NCBI GenBank assembly: GCA_003171315.1
Contig: PMYE01000114.1
Location: forward strand, 1,872-42,050
Direction: 5' to 3'
DNA: 40,179 nt
Source: Acidobacteriaceae bacterium
GTDB lineage: Bacteria > Acidobacteriota > Terriglobia > Terriglobales > Acidobacteriaceae
The translations under genes and the position numbers were made by a program. This document shows, in pieces, positions 9,522 through 34,043 of the stretch. Every line of letters starts with the position of its first letter. Position 1 is the first letter of the stretch. The notes beneath the pieces are model-generated. The model was not told the DNA's origin, did not search any database, and saw nothing but the letters and a program-made list of their open reading frames with translations.

Positions 9522-9530
9522 GAGAACTCG

Positions 9531-12500: not shown

Positions 12501-15500
12501 CGATTCCTCCACCTGTGGTCCGTTGCAGAAGAGCACCCCGAGCCGCCCCTCGAAGAAACACTTGATCGCTGCTTTTTTAGTCCCCTTTACCTCGCTCAAT
12601 CACTGGCGGCTCAGGATTTGGCGGATATTTCCGGCCTTTTCGTTTCCAACCGACTGGAAAAAGTGGCCGATGAGCCGATTCACGATCCAGCCCGCGCTGT
12701 ACTTCATGGTCCGTCGCGCGTAGTTCCCAAGGAGATCTCAGGGTTTGTCTGCAAGACCGTCGACCTCGATGTCGGTACCAGCACAGCAGAGGAATGCGCG
12801 GCGCTTCTACTTGCTGAGTCGGCGGTCGGTGAAATTGCGACAGTCGCTTATCGTCGCGGGAAACGGTTCATCGAGACTTTGGTTCCCTATCAACTCCAGG
12901 CTGCTGTCGAGCGCCACCGCCTCCAGCGCGGAGGCGTTTACCTCATCACAGGTGGACTTGGAGCGCTCGGGCTTACGGTCGCAGCGCAGCTGGCACGCGA
13001 GTTTCAAGCACACCTGGCGCTGGTCGGTCGTACTGGCCTGCCACCGGCCACCGAGTGGGATTCCGTCCTGCGCGATGCCACGCGTTCAGAGGAGGAAAAG
13101 GAAAGGATCCGCAAGCTAATCGAGATCCGCTCGCTTGCCGGCGGGCTGCTCGTCTTACGGGCTGATGTGACAGATCGCGACCAGATGCGGTCCGTCGTAA
13201 CTCAGGTGCGCGCGCAATTTGGCAAGATCGACGGCGTTTTCCACGCTGCGGGCGTGCTCGATGAAGGTCCATTCATGCTCAAGACTGCAAGTGGCGCGTT
13301 AGACGTCCTCAATCCGAAAGTCCGAGGCATTCAAGTGCTCGAGGAGGTTCTGCGCGGCGAACCACTCAGCTGTTTTGTTCTTTTTTCGTCCATCAGTTCC
13401 ATCCGTCCTCCCGGCGGGCAGGTGGACTATGCTGCCGCCAACTCCTTCCTCGACGCATTCGCCGCCTGTCGCGGGGAGCCGGTCATAGCTGTCAACTGGG
13501 GCGCATGGCGCGAGATCGGCATGGCAGCGCGCAGCGGGTCGCCACACCCATGGCTGGACGAGCGCGTGCTTGATGGGCCAGACGCAAGAGTATATTCCGG
13601 CCAGTTCTCACAACGGCGGAATTGGGTTCTTGCTGAACACAGATTCAAGAACAGCAAGGCAATCATGCCCGGGACCGGATATCTCGAAATGGCTGCTGCC
13701 GCCTTCTCGGGACGTTCTCCAAATGGCGCTGTCGAGTTTGAAAGTGTCGCTTTTCTGGCACCGCTGTTGTTTTCCGCCGACGAGAGCCGAGAGATTCGCG
13801 TTCTACTTCGTGTTGAACACGATGTTGAGACCACACCGGGGGCATTCCGGTTCGGAGTCTATTCGCACGCTGACGACTGGGTCGAGCACGCCACAGGAAT
13901 CATCTTGCCCTGCCGCTCGCACCCTACGTCCGCAGTCGATCGAGAGGCGATCGCCGCGCGCTGCAAAAGACGCGAAATCGTGTTCGACGAGCAGAACCGC
14001 ACACGTCAGGAAAGCAGATTTGAGTTTGGGTCTCGCTGGCACTCACTAAGACGCCTGCATATCGGCAACCGTGAGGGACTGGCGGAACTGGTCCTCGCTG
14101 ATGAATTCTCCAAAGAGGTGACCTCGCTGCGCCTGCATCCTGCACTCCTCGATATGGCGACCGGATGCTCGCTCTACGTGACCGAGGGCTACGAGCAAAC
14201 CGACGACATTTACCTTCCGTTTTCCTATAAGAAGCTGTGCCTCTACCGCCCGATCCCGGCACGGATCTTCAGCCATATCCGAGCTCGGCAAGAGAATGAA
14301 GCTCACGGCGAGGTGGAACGTTTCGATATCACGCTCTTCGATGAAAAGAATCAAGTCCTGGCGGAGATAGAGGAATTCACCATGCGGCGTATCACCGATC
14401 GCTCAAAGGCCGTTGAAGGTGTGCTTGCAACTCGCGAGTCCATTCCTCCGGCCGTGAGACAAACGATCAAAAGCGCCTCTGGTTCCGGTATTTCCCCGAC
14501 CGCCGGCGCGAGGACTTTGACCCGAATCCTCCTCGCTGCAACGCCCGCCTCGATTATCGCCGTCTCGCAGCCTCTCAACGAACTTGATGACAGCACTCCG
14601 GCCCCGTTGCGGCGCGCAGTGACTCCCTCTGCTCCTTCCTCTGCTCCGGCCGCGGAAGACATCGAAGCAACGCTTGCTACATGGTGGCGGGAACTGCTCG
14701 GCGTTGAAGACGTACACCCTGACGATGACTTCTTTCTTCTTGGCGGCCACTCTCTTGTTGGCGTCCGCCTCTTCGCAAAGATCAAGAGCAACTACAGAGT
14801 TAACCTCGAACTTGCCACGCTCTTCGAAGCCCGCACAGTACGTCTGCTGGCGGAAGTGATTCGTAAATCGCTGCAACCGGCCGCCGTGGTGGAGAAGAAG
14901 TGGTCCTGCATCGTGCCGATTCAACCGAACGGCTCTCAGATTCCCTTGTTCCTTGTTCATGCAATTGGCGGCGAGGTGCCGTTTTACGAGCCCCTTGCGA
15001 AGGCGTTGGGACCTGACCAACCGCTCTATGCGATCCAGTCGGCGCTTGCAAATCAGGAGGAGATCACAGAGATAACCATTGAAGCGCTGGCGGCCACCTA
15101 CGTCAGCGAGATTCGGTCGTTCTATCCCCAGGGCCCGTACCTTTTAGGAGGCCATTCCTACGGAGGCATTGTCGCGTTTGAGATGGCGCACCAGCTTATC
15201 GTGCAAGGTACGGAGCCGGGAATCATTGTTATGCTGGATGCAGTTGTTCCGGGAAGCAAAGAGCATGTCGGACGCTCGGCTCAGATCTCAAGCCTTGTCG
15301 CGAATCTTCGAAACCAAGGTATGCACTATTTGTCTCGCAAGGCCCACGCCAAAGGCCTGGTTTGGCGACAGAAGTTGATTCGATCAGTTGACCTGGCGGT
15401 TTGCTCTGTCTATCACATGCTGGGGCGGAAGCTCTCCGCAAACCTCCGGTATGCTCTGATGGAAGAGATGCACGCTCGTGCATTGAGCCGCTATGCCTTC

Positions 15501-15743
15501 AGGCCATATCCCGGCACAATCACCGTGATTCGCGCAATCGACCGCGGGTATCAGGGGGTTTCAAGTCTCAGTGAGCTTGACGACCCAACTCTTGGCTGGG
15601 AAGCGCTCGCCGGCGGTGGGGCGCAAATTCACCAAGTACGCTGCGATCATATGAGTATGCTCATCGAGCCTTTTGTTCGGGACGTTGCGGAAGAGCTCAA
15701 ATCAATCGTTTTGCAATTGCGGCCTAAAACCATCGCGTTATAG
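9531..15743 (+). CDS. Type I polyketide synthase, single module KS-AT-KR-DH-ACP-TE
   Basis: KS: VQTACSTSLVAVHLAC, VETHGTGTLVGDPIE, LKTNVGHLDAAAGIAG. AT: GHSIGEYVAG and HAFH (malonyl-type). KR: YLITGGLGALGLTVA, FSSISS, DYAAAN. DH-like: EHRFKNSKAIMPGTGYLEMA and HPALLDMATG. ACP: FFLLGGHSLVGV. TE: LLGGHSYGGIVAFEMA...CDHMSML. Confidence 0.95.
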   Translation: MKSSPIAIVGMAGRFPGARSVAELWQNLRDGVESIRDRSDAELLAAGVTPEELANPDYLKRASILDDVELFDAGFFGFSPRDASIMDPQHRHFLECAWEALEDAGHPPNRFAGSVGVFAGSGLNAYLIHNLLANRRLVETSSMFQLKQTGNDKDVLATRVSYQFDLRGPSVNVQTACSTSLVAVHLACQSLLNFECDMALAGGVTIEIPHGLGYVYRDGEILSRDGHCRTFDAASSGTVFGSGLGIVVLRRLDEAVSDGDFIHAVILGSAINNDGARKIGYLAPSVEGQAEVIAEALDFAGVSADDISYVETHGTGTLVGDPIEVRALTQAFRRSSSRCGYCGIGSLKTNVGHLDAAAGIAGLIKTVLALEHAQLPPSLHFKNLNPHIELQDSPFFISDKLKAWPAGGTPRRAGVTSLGIGGTNAHLVLEEAPGPSLTRKPKPWQLLTVSAKTEAAANRALANLVAQFERDPSLDVADAAFTCQLGRHELAHRRALIVEHSQQAIAALAASGARPTVSGVAAAASPGVAFMFSGQGSQYPNMGRELYAYSPVFRQALNQCSDGLKPHLGIDLVHALHPSESEKDAATAKLNETWLTQPALFSIEYALACWWMSLGIQPVAMVGHSIGEYVAGCLAGVFSLEDALAIVAFRGRLIFDLPSGSMLAVPVAPDELALDTELSVAAIHNPRMCVISGPTPAIMALEERLARQSIACRQLHTSHAFHSKMMDPALGAFEERLRSVNLSPPRIPYLSNVTGTWIRAEEATDPAYWARHIRQTVRFSDNLAELYRTPGQILLEVGPGNALTSLARQNGRLSAKAFQSLPHPRESTSELRCALQTLSQLWVAGKEIDWSRLHEPGSVRRVPLPTYPFERQKHWIEPDRAQSRSEATLTAAPREEANDGILFYRRDWKAVPLPDAVPSAPGPWLVFRDELGIADQIVVQLRTAKQKVILVGRGKGYKQLKKDRYVMRCAVRTDYDALVADLIRTGTPPKRFLHLWSVAEEHPEPPLEETLDRCFFSPLYLAQSLAAQDLADISGLFVSNRLEKVADEPIHDPARAVLHGPSRVVPKEISGFVCKTVDLDVGTSTAEECAALLLAESAVGEIATVAYRRGKRFIETLVPYQLQAAVERHRLQRGGVYLITGGLGALGLTVAAQLAREFQAHLALVGRTGLPPATEWDSVLRDATRSEEEKERIRKLIEIRSLAGGLLVLRADVTDRDQMRSVVTQVRAQFGKIDGVFHAAGVLDEGPFMLKTASGALDVLNPKVRGIQVLEEVLRGEPLSCFVLFSSISSIRPPGGQVDYAAANSFLDAFAACRGEPVIAVNWGAWREIGMAARSGSPHPWLDERVLDGPDARVYSGQFSQRRNWVLAEHRFKNSKAIMPGTGYLEMAAAAFSGRSPNGAVEFESVAFLAPLLFSADESREIRVLLRVEHDVETTPGAFRFGVYSHADDWVEHATGIILPCRSHPTSAVDREAIAARCKRREIVFDEQNRTRQESRFEFGSRWHSLRRLHIGNREGLAELVLADEFSKEVTSLRLHPALLDMATGCSLYVTEGYEQTDDIYLPFSYKKLCLYRPIPARIFSHIRARQENEAHGEVERFDITLFDEKNQVLAEIEEFTMRRITDRSKAVEGVLATRESIPPAVRQTIKSASGSGISPTAGARTLTRILLAATPASIIAVSQPLNELDDSTPAPLRRAVTPSAPSSAPAAEDIEATLATWWRELLGVEDVHPDDDFFLLGGHSLVGVRLFAKIKSNYRVNLELATLFEARTVRLLAEVIRKSLQPAAVVEKKWSCIVPIQPNGSQIPLFLVHAIGGEVPFYEPLAKALGPDQPLYAIQSALANQEEITEITIEALAATYVSEIRSFYPQGPYLLGGHSYGGIVAFEMAHQLIVQGTEPGIIVMLDAVVPGSKEHVGRSAQISSLVANLRNQGMHYLSRKAHAKGLVWRQKLIRSVDLAVCSVYHMLGRKLSANLRYALMEEMHARALSRYAFRPYPGTITVIRAIDRGYQGVSSLSELDDPTLGWEALAGGGAQIHQVRCDHMSMLIEPFVRDVAEELKSIVLQLRPKTIAL

Positions 15744-16467
15744 CGGAAACTAACGACCGAGGCTCTGCAAGCACTGGCCTCACCTCGCAGAGTTGGAGAA
15801 AGGCATCTGCCATTCGCTCTGTTACGACTGCAATGCGGTGACCGAGGTGCTCGAACAGGGAGAACTGCCAGCGTCCCGAATTAATGCCCAAATCCGGATC
15901 CACTTCCAAACGAGCTTCATCGCCTTCGAATAGGAACGAGAGTCTTGTCAAGGGCAACGAAAGACCCATCCCGCAGGCTTTCGTGAAGGCTTCCTTTAGC
16001 GTCCACAGCGACAGGGCGCGGTTCAGCTTCTCCTGAGCCGTGAGTAGTTCGAATTGTATGAGTTCAGATGGCGACAAGACCCGGGGCGCGATCTCTACAA
16101 TTTTGCCTGCGCGTTCTTGTGGCTCGAGGTCGACACCTACCTCGATCCCACGAGAAACCAGGCAGATCACGAGTTTTGGAGAGCGGGAGAGATTAAACCG
16201 AAGGCCGAATTCTGATGGGATCTGGGGCTTGCCATATGCATTCGTGCTAAAACGCCATTCCTCCGGGGCGAGCGGATACGAGTGGCTCAACGCATTCCGT
16301 AATAGTGCGTGCAACGCCAGAAATACCCGGCGGTCTTGGCGGAAACGGAATGCTCGCATTCGAGTTCTTTCGTCCTCTGACAAACATGCTTCGCACGATT
16401 GCGCAATCTTTTCAGAGAGAAGATCGTCTGGATAGGCACACCACAAGGTTAGGCTGTTATGATCCAC
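15724..16467 (-). CDS. 4'-phosphopantetheinyl transferase, Sfp/Gsp type
   Basis: KPQIPSEFGLRFNLSRSPKLVICLVSRGIEVGVDLEP and LSLWTLKEAFTKACGMGL. Convergent with the PKS, 3' ends overlap by 20 nt. Confidence 0.88.
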   Translation of the reverse strand: MDHNSLTLWCAYPDDLLSEKIAQSCEACLSEDERTRMRAFRFRQDRRVFLALHALLRNALSHSYPLAPEEWRFSTNAYGKPQIPSEFGLRFNLSRSPKLVICLVSRGIEVGVDLEPQERAGKIVEIAPRVLSPSELIQFELLTAQEKLNRALSLWTLKEAFTKACGMGLSLPLTRLSFLFEGDEARLEVDPDLGINSGRWQFSLFEHLGHRIAVVTERMADAFLQLCEVRPVLAEPRSLVSAITRWF

Positions 16468-16982: not shown

Positions 16983-17711
16983 TTAAGGCAGCTTCGCCAT
17001 ATCGGTCTTGAATATCTTGTTGGCCGGCGCCACCGCCTCATCCCGTTCGTATCCGTCTTTACGCAGGAAGATGTGAACGGTTGCCGGTTCCGGCTGCGGG
17101 AGTTGGATGGTGCAGGCGCCGTCGCTGCCGGTGAAGGCGCGGTTTATCTTGCCCTGGCCTGTCTGCACATCCACCTCCACGCCGGAGACAGGCACTCCAG
17201 TGACACGGTCGGTGACCTCTGCGCTGAATTGCCACGGCGGAGGAGGGCGAAGGGCATACCAAAGCGCGATGCCGGCCAGGCAAGCCGCCAGCACGCCCAG
17301 CGCGGTCCAAAGCCTGCGCCTACGCGCAAGCGTCCAACCCAACGCGCGCTGGAGCTGCGCGGCTGCTTGCGCGGCGTCGGTGGCAGTGATGCCCTGAACC
17401 TCAAGCATCGCAGGCAGCGGCGTCTTATCCAGCAGCCAGGGAAGCACCGGCCTGCGCAGCGCCTCGGCGCGCGAATACTCGAAGGTGATGTATTCGGAGC
17501 CGCGCGTGTTTTGCGACCAGCACAGCACTATCGTGCGTGAGGCGCCAATCGAGCGTTCGAGCCGGCGCTTCCACTGCTCGCCGGGATCGATCGACTGCAC
17601 GTCGAAGAAGACGCGATAGCCCATGCGGCGCAACTCGTCGCGCAGCGGCGCTACGAGTTCCGTGTCCGCGCGCGAGTAGCTTAGGAATACGTCGTATTTC
17701 GTCATGGACAT
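16983..17711 (-). CDS. TIR-domain protein with single TM and C-terminal carboxypeptidase-regulatory/PEGA-like domain
   Basis: KYDVFLSYSRADTELVAPLRDELRRMGYRVFFDVQSIDPGEQWKRRLERSIGASRTIVLCWSQN...YITFEYSRAEAL (TIR, conserved Glu). TM LWTALGVLAACLAGIALWYAL. Then AEVTDRVTGVPVSGVEVDVQTGQG.... Confidence 0.9.
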   Translation of the reverse strand: MSMTKYDVFLSYSRADTELVAPLRDELRRMGYRVFFDVQSIDPGEQWKRRLERSIGASRTIVLCWSQNTRGSEYITFEYSRAEALRRPVLPWLLDKTPLPAMLEVQGITATDAAQAAAQLQRALGWTLARRRRLWTALGVLAACLAGIALWYALRPPPPWQFSAEVTDRVTGVPVSGVEVDVQTGQGKINRAFTGSDGACTIQLPQPEPATVHIFLRKDGYERDEAVAPANKIFKTDMAKLP

Positions 17712-22247: not shown

Positions 22248-22775
22248 ATGTCCGGCTTTGTTCTGTTGGCCACGCCCTGGTGGGTGAACCTCCTCATCCT
22301 CATTCCTGCTGTCGCCTTTCTCAACTCGAGAAAGCAGAAGATTCGCATGGAGAAGAAGCGGCTCTTGCCGGCCGCGCTCATCGCCATAGCTTTTGGGTTT
22401 GTGGAAGCAGCCGTCGTGGTCTATCTCAGGGCCGCCACCGGACTTTGGCCCGGCCCGCCGGTCAAAGCGCTCGTTACCCTCCCTGGGGCCCTGTTAAGGA
22501 TCGAGTATTTCAGAGAAGCGGCAACCCTAATCATGCTCGCCGGCATCGCCTGGCTTGCGGGGCAAAGCATCAAGGCAAGGTTCGTTGCCTTTCTTTGGAC
22601 CTTCGCCATCTGGGACATCTTCTATTACGTCTGGCTTCGTCTCACGATTGGATGGCCTACCTCGTTCCTCAACTCTGACCTGCTCTTCCTGATTCCCGTG
22701 CCATGGACGGCGCAGGTGTGGTTCCCCATCCTGGTCAGCGGCCTCACCGCAACGGTCATTTGGTTCCGCTCTTGA
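22248..22775 (+). CDS. Hypothetical multi-pass membrane protein
   Basis: Open frame with several hydrophobic helices (LATPWWVNLLILIPAVAFL, LLPAALIAIAFGFVEAAVVVYL, AQVWFPILVSGLTATVIWF). Confidence 0.6.
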   Translation: MSGFVLLATPWWVNLLILIPAVAFLNSRKQKIRMEKKRLLPAALIAIAFGFVEAAVVVYLRAATGLWPGPPVKALVTLPGALLRIEYFREAATLIMLAGIAWLAGQSIKARFVAFLWTFAIWDIFYYVWLRLTIGWPTSFLNSDLLFLIPVPWTAQVWFPILVSGLTATVIWFRS

Positions 22776-22927
22776 ATGCGTGCTTGCGCAGGAGTTCCAG
22801 GCCGCGGCCTGCCGTTCGGCAGAACACCCAGCTTCCCGCCGACGGGCTTTGCCCTGGTTCCTTCCTGCCGGGCATGCGCCTCGACATCAACCCCCATGAG
22901 CCTCCTGCCGCGATCTCGCGCCGTGAT

Positions 22928-24760
22928 ATGCTCAACCCAGATTTAAGGAGCGCCGTCTCTCACCGCGCCATGGCCCCTCGCCAGTCAAGCTCGCCGCCGC
23001 GGCCCCGCCAGGTGGTTCAAATTGGTGTGACCGGCCATCGCCTCAACCGGCTGCCGCCTCAGATCGCCGCCGTCCTTCCGGGCCAATGCGAGCAGATTCT
23101 CAAGGCCGTTGCGCATCTGGCCGCCTCCGCGCACGATCATCAACTGTATTCGCCCCAACCCCCGCTGCTGCGCATCCTCTCTCCGCTGGCCGAAGGCGCG
23201 GACCGCATCGTGGCCCACGCCGGCCTCGCCCTGGGCGCGGACTTGCAGTGCCCGCTGCCGTTCCTCGCCGCCGAGTACTGCCACGACTTCGAAGACGCCG
23301 CTTCCCGCGACGAATTCCACTCGCTGCTTGCAAAGGCCTCGGCGGTGTTTCAGATGGAGGGCTCCCGCGCCGGAGAAGACGCGGCTTACGAACGCGTCGG
23401 GCGCATGGTGCTGGAGCAATCCGATCTCCTGATTGCCATCTGGGATGGCGAACCGGCCGCGGGCAGGGGCGGCACCGCGCAGATCGTGGAGGAGGCGCTG
23501 GCGCAGCACGTGCCCGTGGTCTGGCTCCATGCGTCCGAAGCGAAGGAGCCGTGCATTCTCCTCGCCGATGAATCGGGCGGGCGCCAGGTTCAGTCGCTGG
23601 ATCATCTCAAAACGATCTTCGACGGGCGCTTTTCCCAGGGCGGCGGCCAGGAGAAGGACTTCAACTTCAGCCACGCTTACTTCGCCGAGAAACAGCCGGG
23701 CTTCGATCCCGGCCGGATCTTTCGCATCTTTCGCGATCTTGTCGCCCGCGGCCGCCTGCGCAGGGGCGCGTGGCGCGTCGCGAATTTCGAGAAGTCCTCG
23801 CGGGAAGAATGGGAGAAGACGGTCGCAAGCTCTCCCGAGCTGCCCGATGATACGCGCCACTACCTGCTCGACCGCCTCTGCCCTCACTATGCCTGGGCCG
23901 ACGGATTGTCCGGTTACTATGCCGGCGCTCTTCGCTCGAGTTCTCTGGCGACAAGCCTGATGGCGGCCTTTGCTGTCCTGGTTCCGATGGTGGATTACGT
24001 TTGCAGCAGGCACCAAATCGACCTGGGCCGGTTTCCCGCGCTCACCGAATTCTCACTGATCGCGATCATTCTCGCCATTACCTGGCACGGCCGCCGGAAG
24101 CGCTGGCACGAGCGCTGGCTCAACTTGAGGCAGCTGGCCGAGCTATTGCGCCAATACTGCTACCTGGCTCCACTGGGCTGCGCGCTGGCTGCGCCGCCCC
24201 CCCCGGCCCACTTCCGATCCGGCTTCGACCGCTCCTGGGTCGATGGCATGTTTCGCAACATCGCGCGCGATCTCGGCCTGGTAAACGCCCAGGTCAACCA
24301 CGCCTATGTCTCCTCCGTCGCCAAGCTGATCGCGGACATTCTCGATGGCCAGGTGAAATATCACGAGCGCAACCACGAGACGATGCACAAGTTGAGCCAT
24401 CACCTCCATCTCATCGGCACGGCTTTGTTCATTGCAACGCTGCTGGCCTGCGCCTGGCACGTGATCTTCGGGGAATCGCCCTGGCTGCTTCTGCTGGCCA
24501 CCGTTCCGCCCGCCTTCGGCGCAGCGTTTTACGGCATCGCGAATCACGGAGAATTCTCGCGCACCGCGGACCGGTCGCTGGCCATGGCCCGCGAGCTTGA
24601 GGCGATCCAGTCCGCCGAATTGGACAAGGCGCTCGCTTCGCCGCACGAGAGTTTCGCGGCTCTGCGCCAGACCGCCGAGAAGATCGCAAGCGTTATGATT
24701 GCCGAGACTATGGATTGGAGCTTCGTCTTCCGCTACCGGACGTTGAACCTTCCGGGCTGA
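22928..24760 (+). CDS. SLOG (DprA/LOG-like nucleotide-binding) N-terminal domain fused to a SLATT/DUF4231-like four-TM domain
   Basis: VVQIGVTGHRLNRL...LLRILSPLAEGADRIVAHAGLALGADLQCPLPFLAAEY...AYERVGRMVLEQSDLLIAIWDGEPAAGRGGTAQIVEEAL. Two TM pairs in the C-terminal half. Start moved from 22703 to 22928 because the longer form overlaps the upstream gene. Confidence 0.78.
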   Translation: MLNPDLRSAVSHRAMAPRQSSSPPRPRQVVQIGVTGHRLNRLPPQIAAVLPGQCEQILKAVAHLAASAHDHQLYSPQPPLLRILSPLAEGADRIVAHAGLALGADLQCPLPFLAAEYCHDFEDAASRDEFHSLLAKASAVFQMEGSRAGEDAAYERVGRMVLEQSDLLIAIWDGEPAAGRGGTAQIVEEALAQHVPVVWLHASEAKEPCILLADESGGRQVQSLDHLKTIFDGRFSQGGGQEKDFNFSHAYFAEKQPGFDPGRIFRIFRDLVARGRLRRGAWRVANFEKSSREEWEKTVASSPELPDDTRHYLLDRLCPHYAWADGLSGYYAGALRSSSLATSLMAAFAVLVPMVDYVCSRHQIDLGRFPALTEFSLIAIILAITWHGRRKRWHERWLNLRQLAELLRQYCYLAPLGCALAAPPPPAHFRSGFDRSWVDGMFRNIARDLGLVNAQVNHAYVSSVAKLIADILDGQVKYHERNHETMHKLSHHLHLIGTALFIATLLACAWHVIFGESPWLLLLATVPPAFGAAFYGIANHGEFSRTADRSLAMARELEAIQSAELDKALASPHESFAALRQTAEKIASVMIAETMDWSFVFRYRTLNLPG

Positions 24761-24788
24761 CACCGCGCCGTGGATTGCAAGGAGAACT

Positions 24789-26810
24789 ATGGGTAAGCGC
24801 TTCGAAAGGGTCATTCTCGTTGCCTTCGCCATTCTCGCCGTGGGGCTCGGCTTTTGGGGATATGCAAGGGCCGGCAGCGGTTACATGGCCGGCCACGCAT
24901 GGAATCCGGCTGTGCCCTTCACGTTCCTTGAAGCCATTCGCTGTCTCATCAGTTCCATGGGGCTGCTCAGGCTCTACGACCTGTTCCAGCCCGTGCAGGA
25001 TCCGTGGCAGCTCGTGGTTGCGCAGGTACTGGTGCCCGGCATCGCATTGGTTTCCGCGGCGCAACTGTTCCTCACCGGAGTCAGAAAGAATCTCCGCACC
25101 GCGATGGCGCGCCGCAAAACCAACCATACCGTCGTCTGCGGCATCGGCGACGTAGGCATGCAGATCGTGCAGAACCTGCGCGCCGCGCATCATCGCGTTG
25201 TCGCCGTCGATCTGCTGGGCGATTCGCCCAACGCCGCGACCTGCGAGAACAGCGGAGTCCCGGTGCTCCAAGGCGACGCCAAGAATCCTCAGGTGCTGCT
25301 CGCTGCGGGCATCCGCCGCGCGCGAACGGCCGTCGTCACCACCGGCTCCGACAGCGAGAACGTCGATATCGCGCTCCAGATCAAGGCCGTCTACGATCGC
25401 CCGGCCTATCTCAAGCCGGGAAGAATCCAGGTGCTGGCCCAACTGCGCAACGACTGGATGCACAAGCGGCTGATTGCCAGCGACAAGGCGTCCCTCGGCT
25501 CTGCCAATGTGGATCTGCGCCTCTTCAATCCCTTCACCGCTGCGGCGCGCATGTTGATCAAGCGTCTCCACCTGCCGCCTAGCCCCGAGTTTGAGGCGCG
25601 CACCCTTGTCCTCGTTGGGTTCGGGGCGTATGGCCGCGAGATCGCACTGCATCTCATCCGATCCTCTCCGGTCGCGCTCGGCCGCACGCTCAAGATCGTC
25701 GTCTTCGACCAGGATGCCGATGCGGAAAGGGAAAAATTCTCCATCACCAATCCCGCCGTTGCGGAGATCGCCGCGATCGAGTTCGTCGCGGCTACGGTGA
25801 CGCCGGGATCTCCCGACCTGGCGCGCGTCGTCGAGCGCAAGCTTGAATCAGCCGGACCTTTGCTCGGCATCGCGCTTGCCCTGGGCGACGACGAGGTGAG
25901 CCTATGCGCCGCCCTCGAAATGCGCTCGCTGCTCGACCACAAAGGCCATCTCCACGTCCCCATCTACGTGCGCCTCGAGCACTATCGCCGCCTGGGCGAT
26001 GTGGTGCGCAGCGTCGAAGACATCTCCTGCTTCGGCGACCGGCTGCAGGTCTTCGGAACTCTCGAGGAAACGCTCAGCCCGGAAGTATTATTCGGCTCAA
26101 AACTGGATGCCTTTGCCCAGGCCCTCCACGAAGATTACCGGCATCGCTCGCAGGACACGATCAATCCCCAGGCCAATGTCCCCTGGCACGACCTGCCCGA
26201 GTTCATGAAAATGTCGAATCGCTGGCGCGCCGACCACACGCCCCTGCTTATGGAGCTGGCCGGCCTGCACCTGGCAGACGATGTGCACTCGTCGGCCGTC
26301 ACCTCATTGACCGGCGAACAGGTCGAGCTGCTTGCCCAGCTCGAGCACCGCCGCTACACCATCGAACGCCGCCTCGTCGACAGCCGCTTCCCGCTGCGCG
26401 CGCACATGGCGCAGTGGAGCGAACTCAGCGCCGAGCAGAAGAATTGGAATCGCCTGGAGGTTGCCCGCCTGCCCGGGATCATGGCCGGCCTCGGCATCGA
26501 GCTGCATCCTGTGCGCCCCGTGCGCCTCTATGGCAAGCATCTGGCCGGCGCGCCCGCGGAACTCGATCGCTTGTTCGCCGCCCCGGCCTCCGCCCATTGC
26601 AGCCTGGTCGTCGATCTCGACGAACCCCAGGCCGTGAACGCCGCCGCGCGCGCCCTGTCGCTGCCTTCGCTGGGCCTCTGGCTGTTCTCCCGCGAAGAGC
26701 CTCGCGAGTTCTCCCTGCGCAGGCAGCAAATCCAGGGGAGCAGCCGCTCCGCCTTGATTCAACGCGCCAACGGTTGGGCGCAACGGGACTCGGTGGCTCT
26801 CGACGCATGA
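24789..26810 (+). CDS. Membrane protein with N-terminal TM segments, TrkA-N/RCK domain and two C-terminal RyR-like repeats
   Basis: TVVCGIGDVGMQIVQNLRAAHHRVVAVD, VLQGDAKNPQVLLAAGIRRARTAVVTTGSDSENV. RyR-like FAQALHEDYRHR...NVPWHDLPEFMKMSNRWRADHTPLLMELAGLHL and LAQLEHRRYTIERRLV...WSELSAEQKNWNRLEVARLPGIMAGLGIEL. Confidence 0.82.
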   Translation: MGKRFERVILVAFAILAVGLGFWGYARAGSGYMAGHAWNPAVPFTFLEAIRCLISSMGLLRLYDLFQPVQDPWQLVVAQVLVPGIALVSAAQLFLTGVRKNLRTAMARRKTNHTVVCGIGDVGMQIVQNLRAAHHRVVAVDLLGDSPNAATCENSGVPVLQGDAKNPQVLLAAGIRRARTAVVTTGSDSENVDIALQIKAVYDRPAYLKPGRIQVLAQLRNDWMHKRLIASDKASLGSANVDLRLFNPFTAAARMLIKRLHLPPSPEFEARTLVLVGFGAYGREIALHLIRSSPVALGRTLKIVVFDQDADAEREKFSITNPAVAEIAAIEFVAATVTPGSPDLARVVERKLESAGPLLGIALALGDDEVSLCAALEMRSLLDHKGHLHVPIYVRLEHYRRLGDVVRSVEDISCFGDRLQVFGTLEETLSPEVLFGSKLDAFAQALHEDYRHRSQDTINPQANVPWHDLPEFMKMSNRWRADHTPLLMELAGLHLADDVHSSAVTSLTGEQVELLAQLEHRRYTIERRLVDSRFPLRAHMAQWSELSAEQKNWNRLEVARLPGIMAGLGIELHPVRPVRLYGKHLAGAPAELDRLFAAPASAHCSLVVDLDEPQAVNAAARALSLPSLGLWLFSREEPREFSLRRQQIQGSSRSALIQRANGWAQRDSVALDA

Positions 26811-26984
26811 ACCGTGCCCGCGTTTACCCCTGCGTTCCCGGCTTGCGAGTTCGGGCTCTGGAATGGCGATTCGGATTTGAACGGTAGATGCCACAGAAAG
26901 CAATTGACGAGTCCTGTTCGTTTCTGCATGATGAATGAAAAATCCCCGTGCTTCTCACCCGCCGTAAGAAGCCTGGAGGGCCCA

Positions 26985-29900
26985 ATGCACACAAGATTGT
27001 TTCTCGTAAGGTCTTTTTGCCTGCTGTCCGTCTCGACGATCTTTCCGCTGCTGTTTGCCGGCGCTCTCCGCGGACAAACAACCCAGACTGAGATCGACTA
27101 TACGGGCAGCCTGATGGGTTACTACCGGATCGAAGCCACCGAGACCGCTCCTGTTCTTCAGCCGGTTAGAGATTTTCTCAAGTTTCGCGATGACGAAGCC
27201 CAGGACCCGAAGGACCGCCGCCTGTTGCTGGGAATGGGAGACGACTTCGGCCCCGAGTTCGGCGCTGCGCTGCAGTTCGAAAACATCGGTCTGGGCGATT
27301 GCAAGTTGCCGCAAAAAACGGGACTGCCCGACAACGATGGCCCGCCGGAGAGCCTCTATAAGGACGACGATCGCATTGCTCGCGCCGCCTATTGCGACAA
27401 TGTCCTCAACTTTCTCATGACCGCCGGATTCCGCGCCGTGGTGCCGGGTCGCGAAGACTTTATGTATTCGGCGGGCTGGCTGCGCGGAGTCGCGCGCCTG
27501 CTCGCCGAGGAAAGCGAACGAGAGAACCCTAGCGGCCAGAGTGAGGCTGGCAAACAGAATCAGGCGACCAACTCGCTGCGGATCGAGAACGAAGATCATC
27601 GCTTATTCCTCCTCGCGGCCAACCTTCGCATGGCGCTGACAGCAAAGCTTAAATTGCTGCCCAATGACGGTCCAGGTTCTGCCTACGGGCTGAAGAACAA
27701 TTGCCCATTGCTTTTCGCCGGCAATCCGTTCGCCAGGGGCTCGGTAAAATGCGTCAACCAGGGCAGCGGGGCCGGGGGGGGCGGTAGCGCAGGAACCGCC
27801 CCGGAAGTCGAGCCGCTCGACTGGCTCGACCGCCTCGACCGGCTTAGCTCGGAACGAGGTAAAAATCCGGCCGTTACCGCAATGCGGCAACTGGCCGCCG
27901 GAACCACAAACGTACGCAATGCCTTAGTCAGTGACGAGGTCGCCATTATGCAAGCGGCGTGGTGGTCGCCACAGGCATTCAAGTCAGCCGACAAAATTCA
28001 ACTTCCTGCTCTGCCCGGAAAATTCGCTTTCGGAGGACACGAAAGTGGCAGCCCGGACCTGGATCCGGATTTGATAACCAGCCTGTCGGCAATTTTGCAC
28101 AGTCTCGATTCCTCCGTGTGCCAGGCCGGAGCGGTCTTTAACGATCCCGCCAACAGGGACAATGCCCGCGATTTGTGCGCTTACCGTGACAGGCTGCTGC
28201 TGATCCTCTTGAATTTGAAGGACAACTTGGCCAAACCCGGCGAGCCGCTTGAAAATTGCACGGCAGACAATGGAGATTCCAGCGCGGGCGCATGCTTTCT
28301 TCTCAGCGAGGCGTCGCGCAAAGCCGCAATCCGCGGATTGCTGCGCACCATCGCCAGGGAACAGAAAGACGTCGGCTATACCGTCGCCGAGGAAAATGGG
28401 CAGAAGATTCTGGTCATCGGAGTCGTCGGACAAGACACCATGGAGGCGGTCTCAGAAACCAACCTTCGCCTTTGCATCGGCGGTAAAGGCAGTCAGGACC
28501 TCCCTAACGAAGCGTTGAACGGCAAAAACTGGCCCAAGGACTTTGGCCGCTGCGACGATGCGGTGCCCGCGGCGGAAGTGGTGGTGACCGATCCCACCGT
28601 AGTCACCGGGGCCCTGGTACGCGGGGCCAGTCTCGAATATGGGTCTTTCGATGCCGTGGTTGTGATGGCGCAAATGACGCACACAGAAGCCGAAGTCCTC
28701 GCCACGCGCGTGTGGGCCAAGCTGAGGTCCGCGGGCGAACGCCCTGTCGACCTTGTTTTGAGCGAGCCCGAGGCCGGCTACGACACGCCCGCGCTCGAGT
28801 TATCCTACGCGCTTCCCGCTCAGAGAACCGCAAGTGCCGGGCAGGCAAACCCCGCCGGCGCTCAAGGATCTTCAGCTCGCGCCCAGGCAACAACGAACCC
28901 GGCCCAGGCTGCGGCCTCCGCGAACGCCGCCTATCCCGCCCCCGTCCTGACCCCGGTGAAGGGCTACTCCTCATCGGTGGGCTACTCCTCGTTCGGCAAT
29001 CAATTCCCAGGCACGGTGTCGCGCGTCACGCTCGTCTCCCCCTCCGGGAGCAGCGGCCCCAAAATCGACAATTCCAAGAGCACCTTCGTCCCCAAACCTG
29101 CCGACAACCGCATCACTGCCGTTTCGCTCCTCTTCGACCTGATCCACAAGTTGCGTGGCGACCAAGCATCGCCAATCGTTGCCGCCGGCGCCGATGCTGA
29201 AATCGAAAACGAAAACAGAGCGGAATTGATGCTCCTCCAGTACCTCGAGAAGGCATCGCAGCCCACATCTGACCTGGTGCTCCTCGAGAGCCGCGACATG
29301 CAGTTGGACACCATCGGGCAACAGGCAGTGTTGGATTCGAACGGGAAGCCGGCCCCGCTGGATGACTTCGGGCGTCAGGTCGTGTCGGATGCGAACGGTC
29401 GCCAGGCGCCGGTTAACGACTATGCGGACTACGGTATGTGCCCCGTTTCGCCCGAGAGGCAAAAAAACATCTGCATGTTGCGCATCGCCCTCGACCGCAT
29501 CCTCTGGAAGGGCGATTACATGGAGAATGTGGCCGTCACCGGAAAAGACCTCCAGGCCATGCTCGCGGCTTCGGAGCAGTTGATCGAGCAGCAGTCCGAC
29601 CTGGCCGACAGAGACATTACCAAGGAGTGGCTCGCCTCCTACGGTATCGTTCAGGCCTCGTTGTCGAATCTCACCGAGGTCAACCGCAACAACGAGCCTC
29701 TTTGGGTTCCCGTCGATCCATCGTGTACCCCATCCCCGACAGCCAGGAGTACCTATTGCATCGATGGAACGCCCATCGCTGACGATGCCTACTATTGGCT
29801 GCTCACCACCGATCAGATGGCGCAGGATAAGCTGGTTTATGGGGCCCTCCAGAAGCTGCCCCAGGCCTATCACCAAACCAGCCGCTATTTCGTGACCCAC

Positions 29901-31238
29901 CGGTTATCGCACTTTCTCATCGATCGTTTGCAGGACCCTGACGTTGAAATCGCACTTACCGGCCAGGCCAAAGGGCAACCCCGGCCGGTCGAAGAAACTG
30001 TCACGGCGTCGAACGAGCGCTTCCAGCAGTTGCCGATTTGGCAGGTGGATTTCACCAAGCTCGTCGCCGGCTTCACTTCGCGGCAACCGGTGGGCGGAAA
30101 CGCACAATCCCAAAATTTCCAGGGTGTCTCTGACTCGCGCGCCTCCGTGCCCACTCAGCAGGAGCTGGACCTCGAACTGGCAAGCCGCGTCACGGGGAGC
30201 TTCTTCGGCCCGGCTGGCAGCGGCAAATCGTTTGCGCCGATCTCTTTTGGCATCCAAAGCGCGTTCGCTTATGACCGCTCCGTCATCGGCAATCTCACCA
30301 ACAGGCCGATCAACGCTTCGTATTCCCTCAACAACATCACCGAAGCAGGCTTCATCCAGGTTCGCCTTGGCGGCAAAAGCGGCGACTCCGTCCGCGGCGT
30401 GCACTCGCTCCCGCGCGCCCTTCTGGTCTTCACCCCGCGTCAATATCAGCTTGAAATCGACAACCCGTATTTGTTCTTCTCTTTCGCGGCTGGTTCCGCC
30501 GTGCCTGGCGAGCTCACGGTCAAGCTTCCCCGCATCTCGGCTTGGACCGATCGCGGCGGCTTAAGGGCTGAGTTCGCCGGAAACCGGCCAAGGTCCTTCT
30601 CCTGGTTCTGGTTATCGGGAGGAAGCTATCTGGAGACGGGCATGGAGTTTAGCACGCAAAACAACGTCCTGTCGGCGCTCACGCTGCAAGACACCAACCA
30701 GACGACAGGCGCGACGACGACACATACCTGCCAGGTCACAGCGAACGTCACGCTGCAAACCTGCTTCACCAGCGCTAGGTTCGCAATCAACAACACCACC
30801 ACGGTTGTCGGGTTGCCGGCCGTAAAAACACTGCATTCCCCCGGCTACTATTGGGATTTCCACTTCCAGAACCACCTCTGGCCTCGCGGAGGAGGGAGTG
30901 GCCCCGGACCCGGCAAACAGTGGAGCCTTGTCACCGACTCGCAGGGCGACTATTACTTCGGCCGCTCCCCTTCCGCCGAGTTGCCCACGCAAACGGAGTA
31001 CGCCATCCCGCTGAGCCTGTCGCTGGTCATTCCCGCTTACGGGAATCTCTCCTTCGCGCCCACCTACTCCGGCTTCTTCTACAAGTCGCAATTGAGCGCT
31101 CAAAGCCTGCAGGTGAACTCATTTTCCATCACGGCACGGTGGTACTTCGCCCGCAATGCTCGCGTGCCCGTCCGCAGGCAGACCCCGCTTCCCGGACCGG
31201 CGTCCGCGGATCAGACCCATACTGGAAAGGGGCATTGA
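26985..31238 (+). CDS. Large secreted protein: divergent 5'-nucleotidase/metallophosphoesterase-like N-terminal half, beta-barrel-like C-terminal half
   Basis: Signal peptide MHTRLFLVRSFCLLSVSTIFPLLFAGALRGQ after RBS-like ggaggg. LLLGMGDDFGPEF, FLMTAGFRAVVPGREDFMYS, LFLLAANLRM, NGQKILVIGVVGQD, DAVVVMAQMTHTEAE, DLVLSEPEAGYDTP and MENVAVTGKDLQAML follow UshA-like motif order. C-terminus ends ...SFSITARWYFAR.... Confidence 0.6.
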   Translation: MHTRLFLVRSFCLLSVSTIFPLLFAGALRGQTTQTEIDYTGSLMGYYRIEATETAPVLQPVRDFLKFRDDEAQDPKDRRLLLGMGDDFGPEFGAALQFENIGLGDCKLPQKTGLPDNDGPPESLYKDDDRIARAAYCDNVLNFLMTAGFRAVVPGREDFMYSAGWLRGVARLLAEESERENPSGQSEAGKQNQATNSLRIENEDHRLFLLAANLRMALTAKLKLLPNDGPGSAYGLKNNCPLLFAGNPFARGSVKCVNQGSGAGGGGSAGTAPEVEPLDWLDRLDRLSSERGKNPAVTAMRQLAAGTTNVRNALVSDEVAIMQAAWWSPQAFKSADKIQLPALPGKFAFGGHESGSPDLDPDLITSLSAILHSLDSSVCQAGAVFNDPANRDNARDLCAYRDRLLLILLNLKDNLAKPGEPLENCTADNGDSSAGACFLLSEASRKAAIRGLLRTIAREQKDVGYTVAEENGQKILVIGVVGQDTMEAVSETNLRLCIGGKGSQDLPNEALNGKNWPKDFGRCDDAVPAAEVVVTDPTVVTGALVRGASLEYGSFDAVVVMAQMTHTEAEVLATRVWAKLRSAGERPVDLVLSEPEAGYDTPALELSYALPAQRTASAGQANPAGAQGSSARAQATTNPAQAAASANAAYPAPVLTPVKGYSSSVGYSSFGNQFPGTVSRVTLVSPSGSSGPKIDNSKSTFVPKPADNRITAVSLLFDLIHKLRGDQASPIVAAGADAEIENENRAELMLLQYLEKASQPTSDLVLLESRDMQLDTIGQQAVLDSNGKPAPLDDFGRQVVSDANGRQAPVNDYADYGMCPVSPERQKNICMLRIALDRILWKGDYMENVAVTGKDLQAMLAASEQLIEQQSDLADRDITKEWLASYGIVQASLSNLTEVNRNNEPLWVPVDPSCTPSPTARSTYCIDGTPIADDAYYWLLTTDQMAQDKLVYGALQKLPQAYHQTSRYFVTHRLSHFLIDRLQDPDVEIALTGQAKGQPRPVEETVTASNERFQQLPIWQVDFTKLVAGFTSRQPVGGNAQSQNFQGVSDSRASVPTQQELDLELASRVTGSFFGPAGSGKSFAPISFGIQSAFAYDRSVIGNLTNRPINASYSLNNITEAGFIQVRLGGKSGDSVRGVHSLPRALLVFTPRQYQLEIDNPYLFFSFAAGSAVPGELTVKLPRISAWTDRGGLRAEFAGNRPRSFSWFWLSGGSYLETGMEFSTQNNVLSALTLQDTNQTTGATTTHTCQVTANVTLQTCFTSARFAINNTTTVVGLPAVKTLHSPGYYWDFHFQNHLWPRGGGSGPGPGKQWSLVTDSQGDYYFGRSPSAELPTQTEYAIPLSLSLVIPAYGNLSFAPTYSGFFYKSQLSAQSLQVNSFSITARWYFARNARVPVRRQTPLPGPASADQTHTGKGH

Positions 31239-31335: not shown

Positions 31336-32469
31336 TCACGGCTGGGGCCGTTCGATCTCCTTCTTGCCGCCAAGCAATCCATAGCGCCGCATCATGACGA
31401 GCCAGAGAATCACCCCGGCGACAAACAGCGCCAGGAAAAGCGGAAGCACGGACCACTGTGTCGCTACCGCGAATTGCCCCGCGTGGAAGTACGGACTCAG
31501 ATAGGCATCGCGCAGGAGGTCTCGCATGACCGCCATGCAGGCGATGGTCACCGCCAAAACGCCCGGCGCATACAACGCAGCGGCACGGATATTCTCGTTC
31601 CGCAAGGCTCCGGACATGACGAAGATGGCGGCAATGCCGCCCGTGATGCCAACCAGAAGCAGCGTGGCCGCCAGGGGGCTGTCGCCCATGAACAACATGC
31701 GCAAGCCGCGTGGGAGGCTGACGAGGAAGACCAGGCCCACCACAAACTGCGCCATGGTGGCGTACATAAACGCCTTGCCGCCAAACTGCAACACCTGCCG
31801 GGCATATTCCCTGTCGCGCTTCCAATTGGCCAGAGCCACGAACACCAGGAAGATTCCTCCCACCGCCACAGCGGCAGTGAAAAAGTGCAGGAAGCGCGGG
31901 ATCAGAGCCGGTTCCGTCAGGTTCAGATTCCAGCCGCCCGGATCGGCAAAGTACTTCGTGGCCCATCGCGCGGGAGTCTGGCTCAGGGTGAGATTGTTGC
32001 TGAACAAAAAGCCGATCAGGAAGACCAGGATCACGCTGACGAGCATTACGCCGCCGGCTTTTCCCCCATGCTGTCCGCTGCGGAACGAGACGTAATAGAA
32101 GCCGTAGTAGGCGGCGGTGAGCATCGCCAGCACCAGGAACCATGGCCAGGCCATCACGATCGATGAGGTGTAAAAGAACTGGCCGTAAAGCACCTGCACG
32201 AAGAGCAGCGGAGCAATCCCCAGAGTGATGGTCGCAGGCAGCAGAACCGGCATCTTCTTGGCAACATCGGAAAAGAGGCGTCCGCCGAAGCCCCCGTTTT
32301 TCGCGCGCCATTTGGCGGTGAGCGCAAGCACTCCTCCGCCCAGAAGGAAGTTCATGGCGACAATGTGAAGGACGAACGTCACAATCAGGAGCAGTTTGAA
32401 GACCCAATACGGCGCGGGCAGCGGGTTCGGGTCAAGAGCCGGAATCGGATTGGACTGCATCATCTTCAC
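31336..32469 (-). CDS. Multi-pass membrane protein, cytochrome bd superfamily (CydA-like)/respiratory membrane subunit
   Basis: Nine or so TM helices. N-terminal VLHIVAMNFLLGGGVLALTAKW parallels ILHVFVSHFAVGGGLFLVVTEH of the partner gene. 4-nt overlap with the upstream gene. Confidence 0.6.
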   Translation of the reverse strand: MKMMQSNPIPALDPNPLPAPYWVFKLLLIVTFVLHIVAMNFLLGGGVLALTAKWRAKNGGFGGRLFSDVAKKMPVLLPATITLGIAPLLFVQVLYGQFFYTSSIVMAWPWFLVLAMLTAAYYGFYYVSFRSGQHGGKAGGVMLVSVILVFLIGFLFSNNLTLSQTPARWATKYFADPGGWNLNLTEPALIPRFLHFFTAAVAVGGIFLVFVALANWKRDREYARQVLQFGGKAFMYATMAQFVVGLVFLVSLPRGLRMLFMGDSPLAATLLLVGITGGIAAIFVMSGALRNENIRAAALYAPGVLAVTIACMAVMRDLLRDAYLSPYFHAGQFAVATQWSVLPLFLALFVAGVILWLVMMRRYGLLGGKKEIERPQP

Positions 32470-34043
32470 TTCCCTCCTTGCGCGGGGTTACCGAACCCTT
32501 TGGCGCTGCGCTGCGCATTGATCCACTCCGCCAGCGCCGTGCGCTGCGGACCGGTGAGCTTCAGGTCCGGCATCAGCGGAAACAGAGCGGTCAAATCCTT
32601 CAGCGCCTCGCCGGCCGCGGCCGGATCGCTGGTCAGGTTCTTGAAGAGCGGATCGCTGGCGTTCACGCGATGGCACATCGAACAGTTCTGGTCAAAGACC
32701 GTCTGGCCGTCGGTGGCAGCTACCGCAGCCTCGGCGGAGATGGGTTCGATGGTATTGAGATAAACCGCCAGAACGCCGCGCTCCGCATCGGTCCCGGCGA
32801 ACGGCGGCATCACGCCATTGTGCATGAATTCAAGGCCGCCGGCCATGGCTTGTATCTTGCTCTCATCCCATTGACGCAACGCGATGTAATGCTTGAGCCC
32901 GCGATAGGCGTTCGCCGTGTGGCAGCTCTCGCACTCCACGCGAAAGATCTCGTGCCCCACCCCGGCTAGATTGCTGCCCGCCAGGTCGCGGTTGCTCGCC
33001 CATTTCGCCGACGGCAGAACCCCCGCCGCATTCACTTCGTCCACGCTGAAACCGCCATCCCCCGGAATCTGCGTGGAATAGAGCGAGTTCGCATACAGGT
33101 AGTTCGAGATCACGAAGGGCTTGCGAATGGCTTCACGGACGAACTCGAACGAACCCATCGCGCCCAGCGCCACCAGCGCGACCAAAAGACTGAACGACAG
33201 GTGCATGCGGCCCGGCTTGAGCAACGAAAGCAACGCCAGCACAAACGTGACGGCCAGCAGCACAACGGCGAACCCGGCGTAGTGCGTAGCCGTGGGCATG
33301 GGGCCGCGAGCGCTGGCCCACACATCGGCGGGAATCCGGCGGATGTACCACCACCCCAGCGGCGGCAGAACGGCTAGCGAGGGCACAATCCACCACGCGC
33401 ACCAGCGCACAATGCGCGCCTTCAAACCGGCATCCTTCTCGACGCTCGCGGTGATCAACGCGTAGATTCCCGCCAGCGCCAGCGCAATGGCCGTACGAAA
33501 TGCCAGCGACGGAAAGTAAGTGGGATTGAAAAAGCCCTTCCAGAATTCGTGATTCTTTGTCCAGCTCCCCGAGGTCAGCATGAAGGCGATAATCCCGTTG
33601 ATGATCACCAGGCTCAGGTACGCGGCGCCGAAATAAATCCACCCGTACCACAGGTGCAGCCGCGGCTCCAGCTTGTCCCATCCGTACAGGTAGAGCAGCG
33701 CGGCCGTAATCTCCAGGAAGAAGAACACCCACTCGATGGCCCAGCCCCACACGTACGCATGAATCAGGTTGCTGGTGGCCGTGGGGCTGATCAACGCGAT
33801 CGTGAACCAGATGCCCACCCCGCTGATGGCGCCGAACACCACCGTGACCAGCACAAAGAACCTGGTATGCTTCTTGAGCCAGCCGAGCAGTGCGGCGTCG
33901 TTCTTGCGCCGGGCCCTGTGTTCCGTCACCACCAGAAACAGCCCGCCACCCACCGCGAAGTGAGACACGAACACGTGAAGAATCGCCACTAGGGCAATCA
34001 GCAGTCCGGCGCCAAACGCAACGTCCCAAACGGGATAATTCAT
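32466..34043 (-). CDS. CydA-like membrane quinol-oxidase-type subunit fused to C-terminal cytochrome c domain(s)
   Basis: CydA-like TM region (HVFVSHFAVGGG, VFGAISGVGIWFTIALISP, IEWVFFFLEITAALLYLYGWDKL). Two CxxCH sites: CESCH and CSMCH. Confidence 0.75.
   Translation of the reverse strand: MNYPVWDVAFGAGLLIALVAILHVFVSHFAVGGGLFLVVTEHRARRKNDAALLGWLKKHTRFFVLVTVVFGAISGVGIWFTIALISPTATSNLIHAYVWGWAIEWVFFFLEITAALLYLYGWDKLEPRLHLWYGWIYFGAAYLSLVIINGIIAFMLTSGSWTKNHEFWKGFFNPTYFPSLAFRTAIALALAGIYALITASVEKDAGLKARIVRWCAWWIVPSLAVLPPLGWWYIRRIPADVWASARGPMPTATHYAGFAVVLLAVTFVLALLSLLKPGRMHLSFSLLVALVALGAMGSFEFVREAIRKPFVISNYLYANSLYSTQIPGDGGFSVDEVNAAGVLPSAKWASNRDLAGSNLAGVGHEIFRVECESCHTANAYRGLKHYIALRQWDESKIQAMAGGLEFMHNGVMPPFAGTDAERGVLAVYLNTIEPISAEAAVAATDGQTVFDQNCSMCHRVNASDPLFKNLTSDPAAAGEALKDLTALFPLMPDLKLTGPQRTALAEWINAQRSAKGFGNPAQGGK

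Follow-up and report, generated by a model that had tools for sequence, protein, structure and literature searches.

In a 40,179-nt stretch of acidobacterial DNA (the window), we identified two closely spaced genes encoding a SLOG-SLATT protein and a TM-TrkA_N-RyR protein (TrkA-RyR), followed by a gene for a predicted exported protein with a degenerate 5'-nucleotidase-like region (the surface protein). Our joint reading, to which we assign a probability of about 0.5, is that the pair is a membrane effector module that senses an NAD/ADP-ribose-type signal, and that the surface pseudo-enzyme is co-inherited with it. The trio looks like a known kind of bacterial conflict system, one signalled by nucleotides, in a variant that has an unexpected component at the cell surface.

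An ORF check of the window confirmed four co-directional genes on the + strand at 22248-31238 (Table 1), as the sequence-only reading had described. The claimed spacing also held. The SLOG-SLATT stop (24760) and the TrkA-RyR ATG (24789) are 28 nt apart, and the third large gene, said to follow after ~170 nt with its own ribosome-binding site, begins at 26985, 174 nt after the TrkA-RyR stop (26810) and behind a Shine-Dalgarno-like GGAGGG. The suggestion that all four genes form one system was not supported. The first gene, for a 175-aa protein, has no counterpart at any of the other loci, and we rejected a four-gene operon on this ground. Promoter and terminator scans at the locus gave counts at or below shuffled expectation and were not used as evidence. 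PADLOC returned 0 matches for any of the four proteins.

Table 1 Features of the locus and the nearby TIR gene, in window coordinates.
Feature	Coordinates	Strand	Basis and remarks
175-aa predicted integral membrane protein, neighbour rather than member of the module	22248..22775	+	Family matches at noise level; no counterpart at other loci
SLOG-SLATT protein	22929..24760	+	Start ATG 22929 or 22970; SLOG N-terminal, two 2-TM SLATT modules C-terminal
SLOG domain of the SLOG-SLATT protein	about 22997..23701	+	
TM-TrkA_N-second Rossmann-RyR x2 protein, 673 aa	24789..26810	+	TrkA_N 4.7e-20; RyR via aligned relatives; clade-specific C-terminal extension
Predicted exported pseudo-5'-nucleotidase with C-terminal outer-membrane beta-barrel, 1417 aa	26985..31238	+	5_nucleotid_C in relatives; Foldseek; barrel model
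Predicted pseudo-nucleotidase passenger: metallophosphatase-like part, insert, 5_nucleotid_C-like part	27078..29932	+	Model confidence low, pLDDT 62
Predicted outer-membrane beta-barrel, autotransporter/FapF type	30036..31163	+	AF2 pLDDT 71, pTM 0.69; Foldseek matches
TIR-domain gene, ~5 kb upstream	16983..17711	-	TIR_2 2e-21; one of 8 TIR_2 loci in the genome

We compared the locus across 61 genomes, of which about 36 belong to the source genus (G000 is the window's own genome). Full-length SLOG-SLATT orthologs were found in four genomes (G000, G006, G013 and G023), and full-length matches to TrkA-RyR and to the surface protein in the same five, namely these four and G015. The sequence-only reading had linked the three large genes, and a search for their co-occurrence found them as neighbours, in the same order and on the same strand, in three further genomes (G006, G013 and G023), so the trio passed the refutation test that this reading had set. 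The spacing between SLOG-SLATT and TrkA-RyR is 27, 28, 29 or 31 nt across the four genomes. Identity to the window copy is 61-70% for the SLOG-SLATT orthologs of G006, G013 and G023, and 58-75% for TrkA-RyR. In G023 the flanks differ and no shared flank gene adjoins the trio, with a pirin copy and matches to a 275-aa flank gene lying on other contigs, while the trio stays adjacent, which indicates that the trio travels together. The arrangement in G015 counts against the module model, as TrkA-RyR is present there with no detectable SLOG-SLATT and the surface gene lies on a short separate contig. A scan of genome contigs found the G013 record alone. The window comes from a soil acidobacterium, and the trio is common to it and three relatives.

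A serious contender, if short of even odds, is that the pair works as a two-gene system by itself, with the surface pseudo-nucleotidase as an independent protein (for example an adhesin or a phage receptor) that is merely co-inherited. The gap before the surface gene is 174-240 nt, and in G006 it grows to ~2 kb and holds an opposite-strand TIR gene; because this gene splits the G006 locus, the surface gene is probably transcribed on its own. Members of the surface family also occur alone elsewhere in the class, including in a same-genus complete genome, and no TrkA-RyR was detected in G592 or G558, which both carry the family. Orthologs of the surface protein are 46-54% identical to the window copy over the N-terminal passenger and 60-66% over the barrel. 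The protein diverges ~2-3 times faster than those of the neighbouring genes, as is expected of a surface protein. However, the surface protein and TrkA-RyR occur in the same 5 of 61 genomes, the trio also stays together where its genomic surroundings differ, and all five system-linked surface proteins group in a single clade (100/100) that excludes the standalone same-genus copy. The surface-protein tree was also checked for discordance, which was not significant (p-AU 0.054). Co-inheritance within one genus is what ties the surface protein to the pair, and we judge its membership of the SLOG-SLATT/TrkA-RyR circuit somewhat less than probable.

SLOG-SLATT proteins were reportedly described by Burroughs et al. 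in 2015 as effectors of nucleotide-centric conflict systems. The window protein shares with these effectors the fusion of SLOG to SLATT transmembrane modules, and its homologs likewise lie beside TIR and STAND genes. It differs in having a TM-TrkA_N-RyR partner and a locus with an added surface pseudo-nucleotidase. The SLATT assignment of the sequence-only reading was confirmed by Pfam DUF4231 (1.6e-5, above cut-off) and by NCBIfam SLATT_1 (4.7e-8, below the curated cut-off), and a relative matches Pfam SLATT_1 above cut-off (1.5e-8). Four hydrophobic stretches C-terminal to SLOG make up two 2-TM modules. The SLOG assignment was confirmed through relatives. The window protein has no direct Pfam SLOG match, and a PDB profile search with it gave antibody noise only. 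Its SLOG domain aligns with 12 diverse relatives in which the GVTGHR, AEGAD and WDGEP..GGT motifs are conserved, and single relatives match the SLOG-superfamily Pfam models YAcAr (4.5e-5), DRHyd and DprA, the latter two weakly. SLATT proteins are predicted nucleotide-responsive membrane effectors (PMC7159879, PMC9503650).

The TrkA-N domain proposed earlier for the second protein was recovered as a direct match (4.7e-20), and the GxGxxG motif is invariant in both Rossmann domains. The proposed RyR repeats were borne out indirectly. The window protein has no Pfam RyR match itself and one ortholog reaches 0.025; six proteins found with PF02026 align to the TrkA-RyR family model over ~510 positions (1e-49 to 1e-56), and the two of these that were scanned in Pfam each contain two RyR stretches above cut-off. 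The motif His is retained in both repeats. In the window clade, repeat 2 has Tyr in place of the canonical Trp (Cys in G015), and Asn or another residue in place of the Asp; the correspondence of these positions to RyDEP residues is inferred. The loss of the adenine-bracing Trp and the canonical Asp from repeat 2 makes ligand binding by the RyR repeats uncertain. The repeats of the window clade look like binding modules and not enzymes. RyR-domain proteins of phages bind or cleave 2'/3'cADPR (PMC13232231). The window protein shares the RyR domain with these phage RyDEP/RyR-domain proteins, including the motif His, but lacks the canonical Trp and Asp in repeat 2, and it is chromosomal, membrane-anchored and equipped with Rossmann domains. 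TM-TrkA_N-RyR proteins with Pfam TrkA_N and RyR matches (e.g. L106 and L109) have the same architecture over ~510 residues, whereas the window protein has degenerate RyR repeats and a C-terminal extension of ~100 residues, and its partner is SLOG-SLATT where that of L106 is STAND-RyR. The C-terminal half of TrkA-RyR is unmatched elsewhere in 250 genomes of the class, a sample that holds no sister genomes.

The sequence-only reading had also proposed that the TrkA-type domain gates a channel, and a role in potassium or osmotic homeostasis would follow the same line, with TrkA-RyR gating an ion channel, SLOG-SLATT as an accessory channel and no part in conflict. TrkA_N does belong among the RCK domains of K+ channels and transporters. 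However, inspection of the transmembrane region by eye revealed no TVGYG-like filter, either in the window protein or in the six aligned relatives, so channel gating is not supported, and no TrkH/KtrB-type partner was recognised among the genes adjacent to TrkA-RyR. The patchy presence of TrkA-RyR (a full-length match in 5 of 61 genomes) and the fusion or adjacency of its relatives to STAND, kinase, TIR and SLOG modules also argue against homeostasis, which we consider unlikely. A loop between the first two hydrophobic stretches (window positions about 24876-24911) is hypervariable in length among orthologs and much longer in L041 and L042. It is probably periplasmic and is a possible contact site.

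The 1,417-aa surface protein itself gave no domain match in the family search, and an initial PDB profile search with it gave nothing useful. Its distant relatives match 5_nucleotid_C (PF02872) above cut-off, and the best 30 Foldseek matches of its model all belong to the 5'-nucleotidase family (CD73, UshA, NadN, SoxB and others), in a search that used a low-confidence model (pLDDT 62) and gave low TM-scores. The N-terminus is hydrophobic. The C-terminal 420 residues form an all-beta barrel in the AF2 model (pLDDT 71, pTM 0.69), with EstA (7.5e-7), FapF (1.8e-6) and AIDA-I (4.8e-6) as best Foldseek matches at low TM-scores of 0.2-0.5. Our analyses predict a passenger of 5'-nucleotidase fold on an autotransporter-like outer-membrane barrel, and the earlier description of a secreted or outer-membrane nucleotidase-like protein is supported, with the qualification that the nucleotidase part is degenerate. 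Fold and domain order are those of UshA, NadN and CD73, but the metal site is lost, a large insert is present and the protein is fused to a predicted barrel. The autotransporters and FapF-type barrel proteins (EstA, AIDA-I, NalP) have a C-terminal barrel behind an N-terminal passenger with a signal peptide, and the surface protein would have the same layout if its hydrophobic N-terminus is a signal peptide; unlike in those proteins, the passenger is a pseudo-nucleotidase, and the likeness is structural and not in sequence.

Across 13 aligned family members, one of which is a fragment without the N-terminal motifs, the metal-binding motifs have been lost or have degenerated. DxH has become a YTG-type sequence, GNHE has become G-x-x-DF, and both His-containing motifs are gone; GD alone is kept. 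The third motif still has its His in some standalone family members. In the system-linked clade, the base-binding loop has degenerated. From the motif losses, we conclude that the surface protein is probably catalytically dead and not a nucleotidase, and the idea that it handles an extracellular nucleotide is not supported. That it is an active ecto-nucleotidase, scavenging nucleotides and supplying the signal, is suggested by the 5'-nucleotidase fold and C-terminal domain but is rejected on the loss or degeneracy of the metal-site motifs, and we regard it as very improbable.

The gene neighbourhoods of relatives count in favour of a nucleotide-sensing module. SLOG-SLATT relatives in the class adjoin TIR genes at six loci (L067, L069, L070, L073, L074 and L077), two of which also have STAND NTPases (L067 and L069). 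At L067, the closest SLOG-SLATT outgroup, a SIR2-TIR gene and nSTAND1 lie downstream. RyR proteins recur as partners: the gene immediately before SLOG-SLATT in L110 encodes STAND-RyR, as does a neighbour of SLOG in L105. A single chain encoded in L114 (6890-9265) carries RyR and TPR-S together with a nucleotide cyclase domain and a SLOG-like region (hhalign 97.5%), and its gene adjoins a ThsB-like TIR gene.

Several other arrangements were seen among these loci. TM-TrkA_N-RyR and STAND/AAA-RyR genes are 3 nt apart in L106:7665-11933, and L107 has a similar pair (9202-11052 and 13493-16006) that is not adjacent. TrkA_N-RyR is fused to a Ser/Thr kinase in L113:9375-11711, and RyR is fused to a kinase in L104:7556-8923. 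In L105:2877-6586, a SLOG-like domain is fused to a low-molecular-weight phosphatase domain, and the gene overlaps that of STAND-RyR.

In the window, no gene for an enzyme that would make a nucleotide signal (TIR, SMODS etc.) adjoins the trio, and the G013 and G023 loci have no TIR gene. Among the window genome and its four sisters, G006 alone carries a TIR gene within the locus. The TIR gene ~5 kb upstream in the window is a possible source of an NAD-derived signal. It is not supported as a dedicated partner, given that TIR_2 loci are many (eight in the window's genome and 2-11 in the four sister genomes), so its proximity may be a coincidence. After the TIR domain, its product has a carboxypeptidase-regulatory-like domain that scores below cut-off. 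Thoeris (TIR plus SIR2-SLOG) similarly uses SLOG as the presumed sensor of an NAD-derived signal, but the window has no SIR2 domain or dedicated adjacent TIR gene and its output would be a membrane protein. We rejected Thoeris and any other PADLOC-listed system on the missing PADLOC match, the missing SIR2 and the missing adjacent TIR gene in the window.

For the NAD/ADP-ribose-type module, we propose that the closely spaced inner-membrane pair is the core. SLOG-SLATT would be the effector, with its cytosolic SLOG domain binding an NAD-derived nucleotide such as ADP-ribose or a cyclic-ADP-ribose isomer; once bound, SLOG would cause the two SLATT 2-TM modules to alter inner-membrane permeability. 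TrkA-RyR would be the membrane-anchored partner, responding to that nucleotide or to the balance of NAD and ADP-ribose and thereby setting the pore's threshold. We propose it as a sensor because the dinucleotide motifs of its two Rossmann domains are intact and its tandem RyR repeats come from a family that binds nucleotides. NADases of the TIR or SIR2 type, encoded at other sites in the genome, would probably supply the signal. The surface protein, if functionally linked, would most plausibly act as a surface receptor, a decoy or an envelope-integrity sensor of the same stress. A stronger version, in which a dead-nucleotidase autotransporter is a tripwire (it may respond to e.g. phage adsorption or envelope damage) that arms the SLOG-SLATT pore via the TrkA-RyR sensor in a surface-to-cytoplasm immune circuit, strikes us as a long shot.

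The conserved unit is short and joins SLOG and RyR, both linked to cyclic-ADP-ribose signals in bacterial immunity. Their placement beside a membrane effector offers a compact system in which to ask if prokaryotic RyR regulates nucleotide-gated membrane proteins, a question that bears on the origin of nucleotide sensing in animal ryanodine receptors and TRPM channels. If the surface pseudo-enzyme does act in the pathway, it would add a cell-surface component to systems thought to be intracellular.

The rest of the window includes a fragment of a group II intron reverse transcriptase/maturase (331-1038) and a biosynthetic cluster (5924-16467) with carbamoyltransferase, AMP-binding/PCP, type I PKS with thioesterase, and phosphopantetheinyl transferase. 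Downstream of the trio, a cytochrome bd subunit I-like domain is fused to C-terminal cytochrome c domains (32466-34043), and the next gene, at 31336-32469, encodes the multi-TM partner of this fusion.
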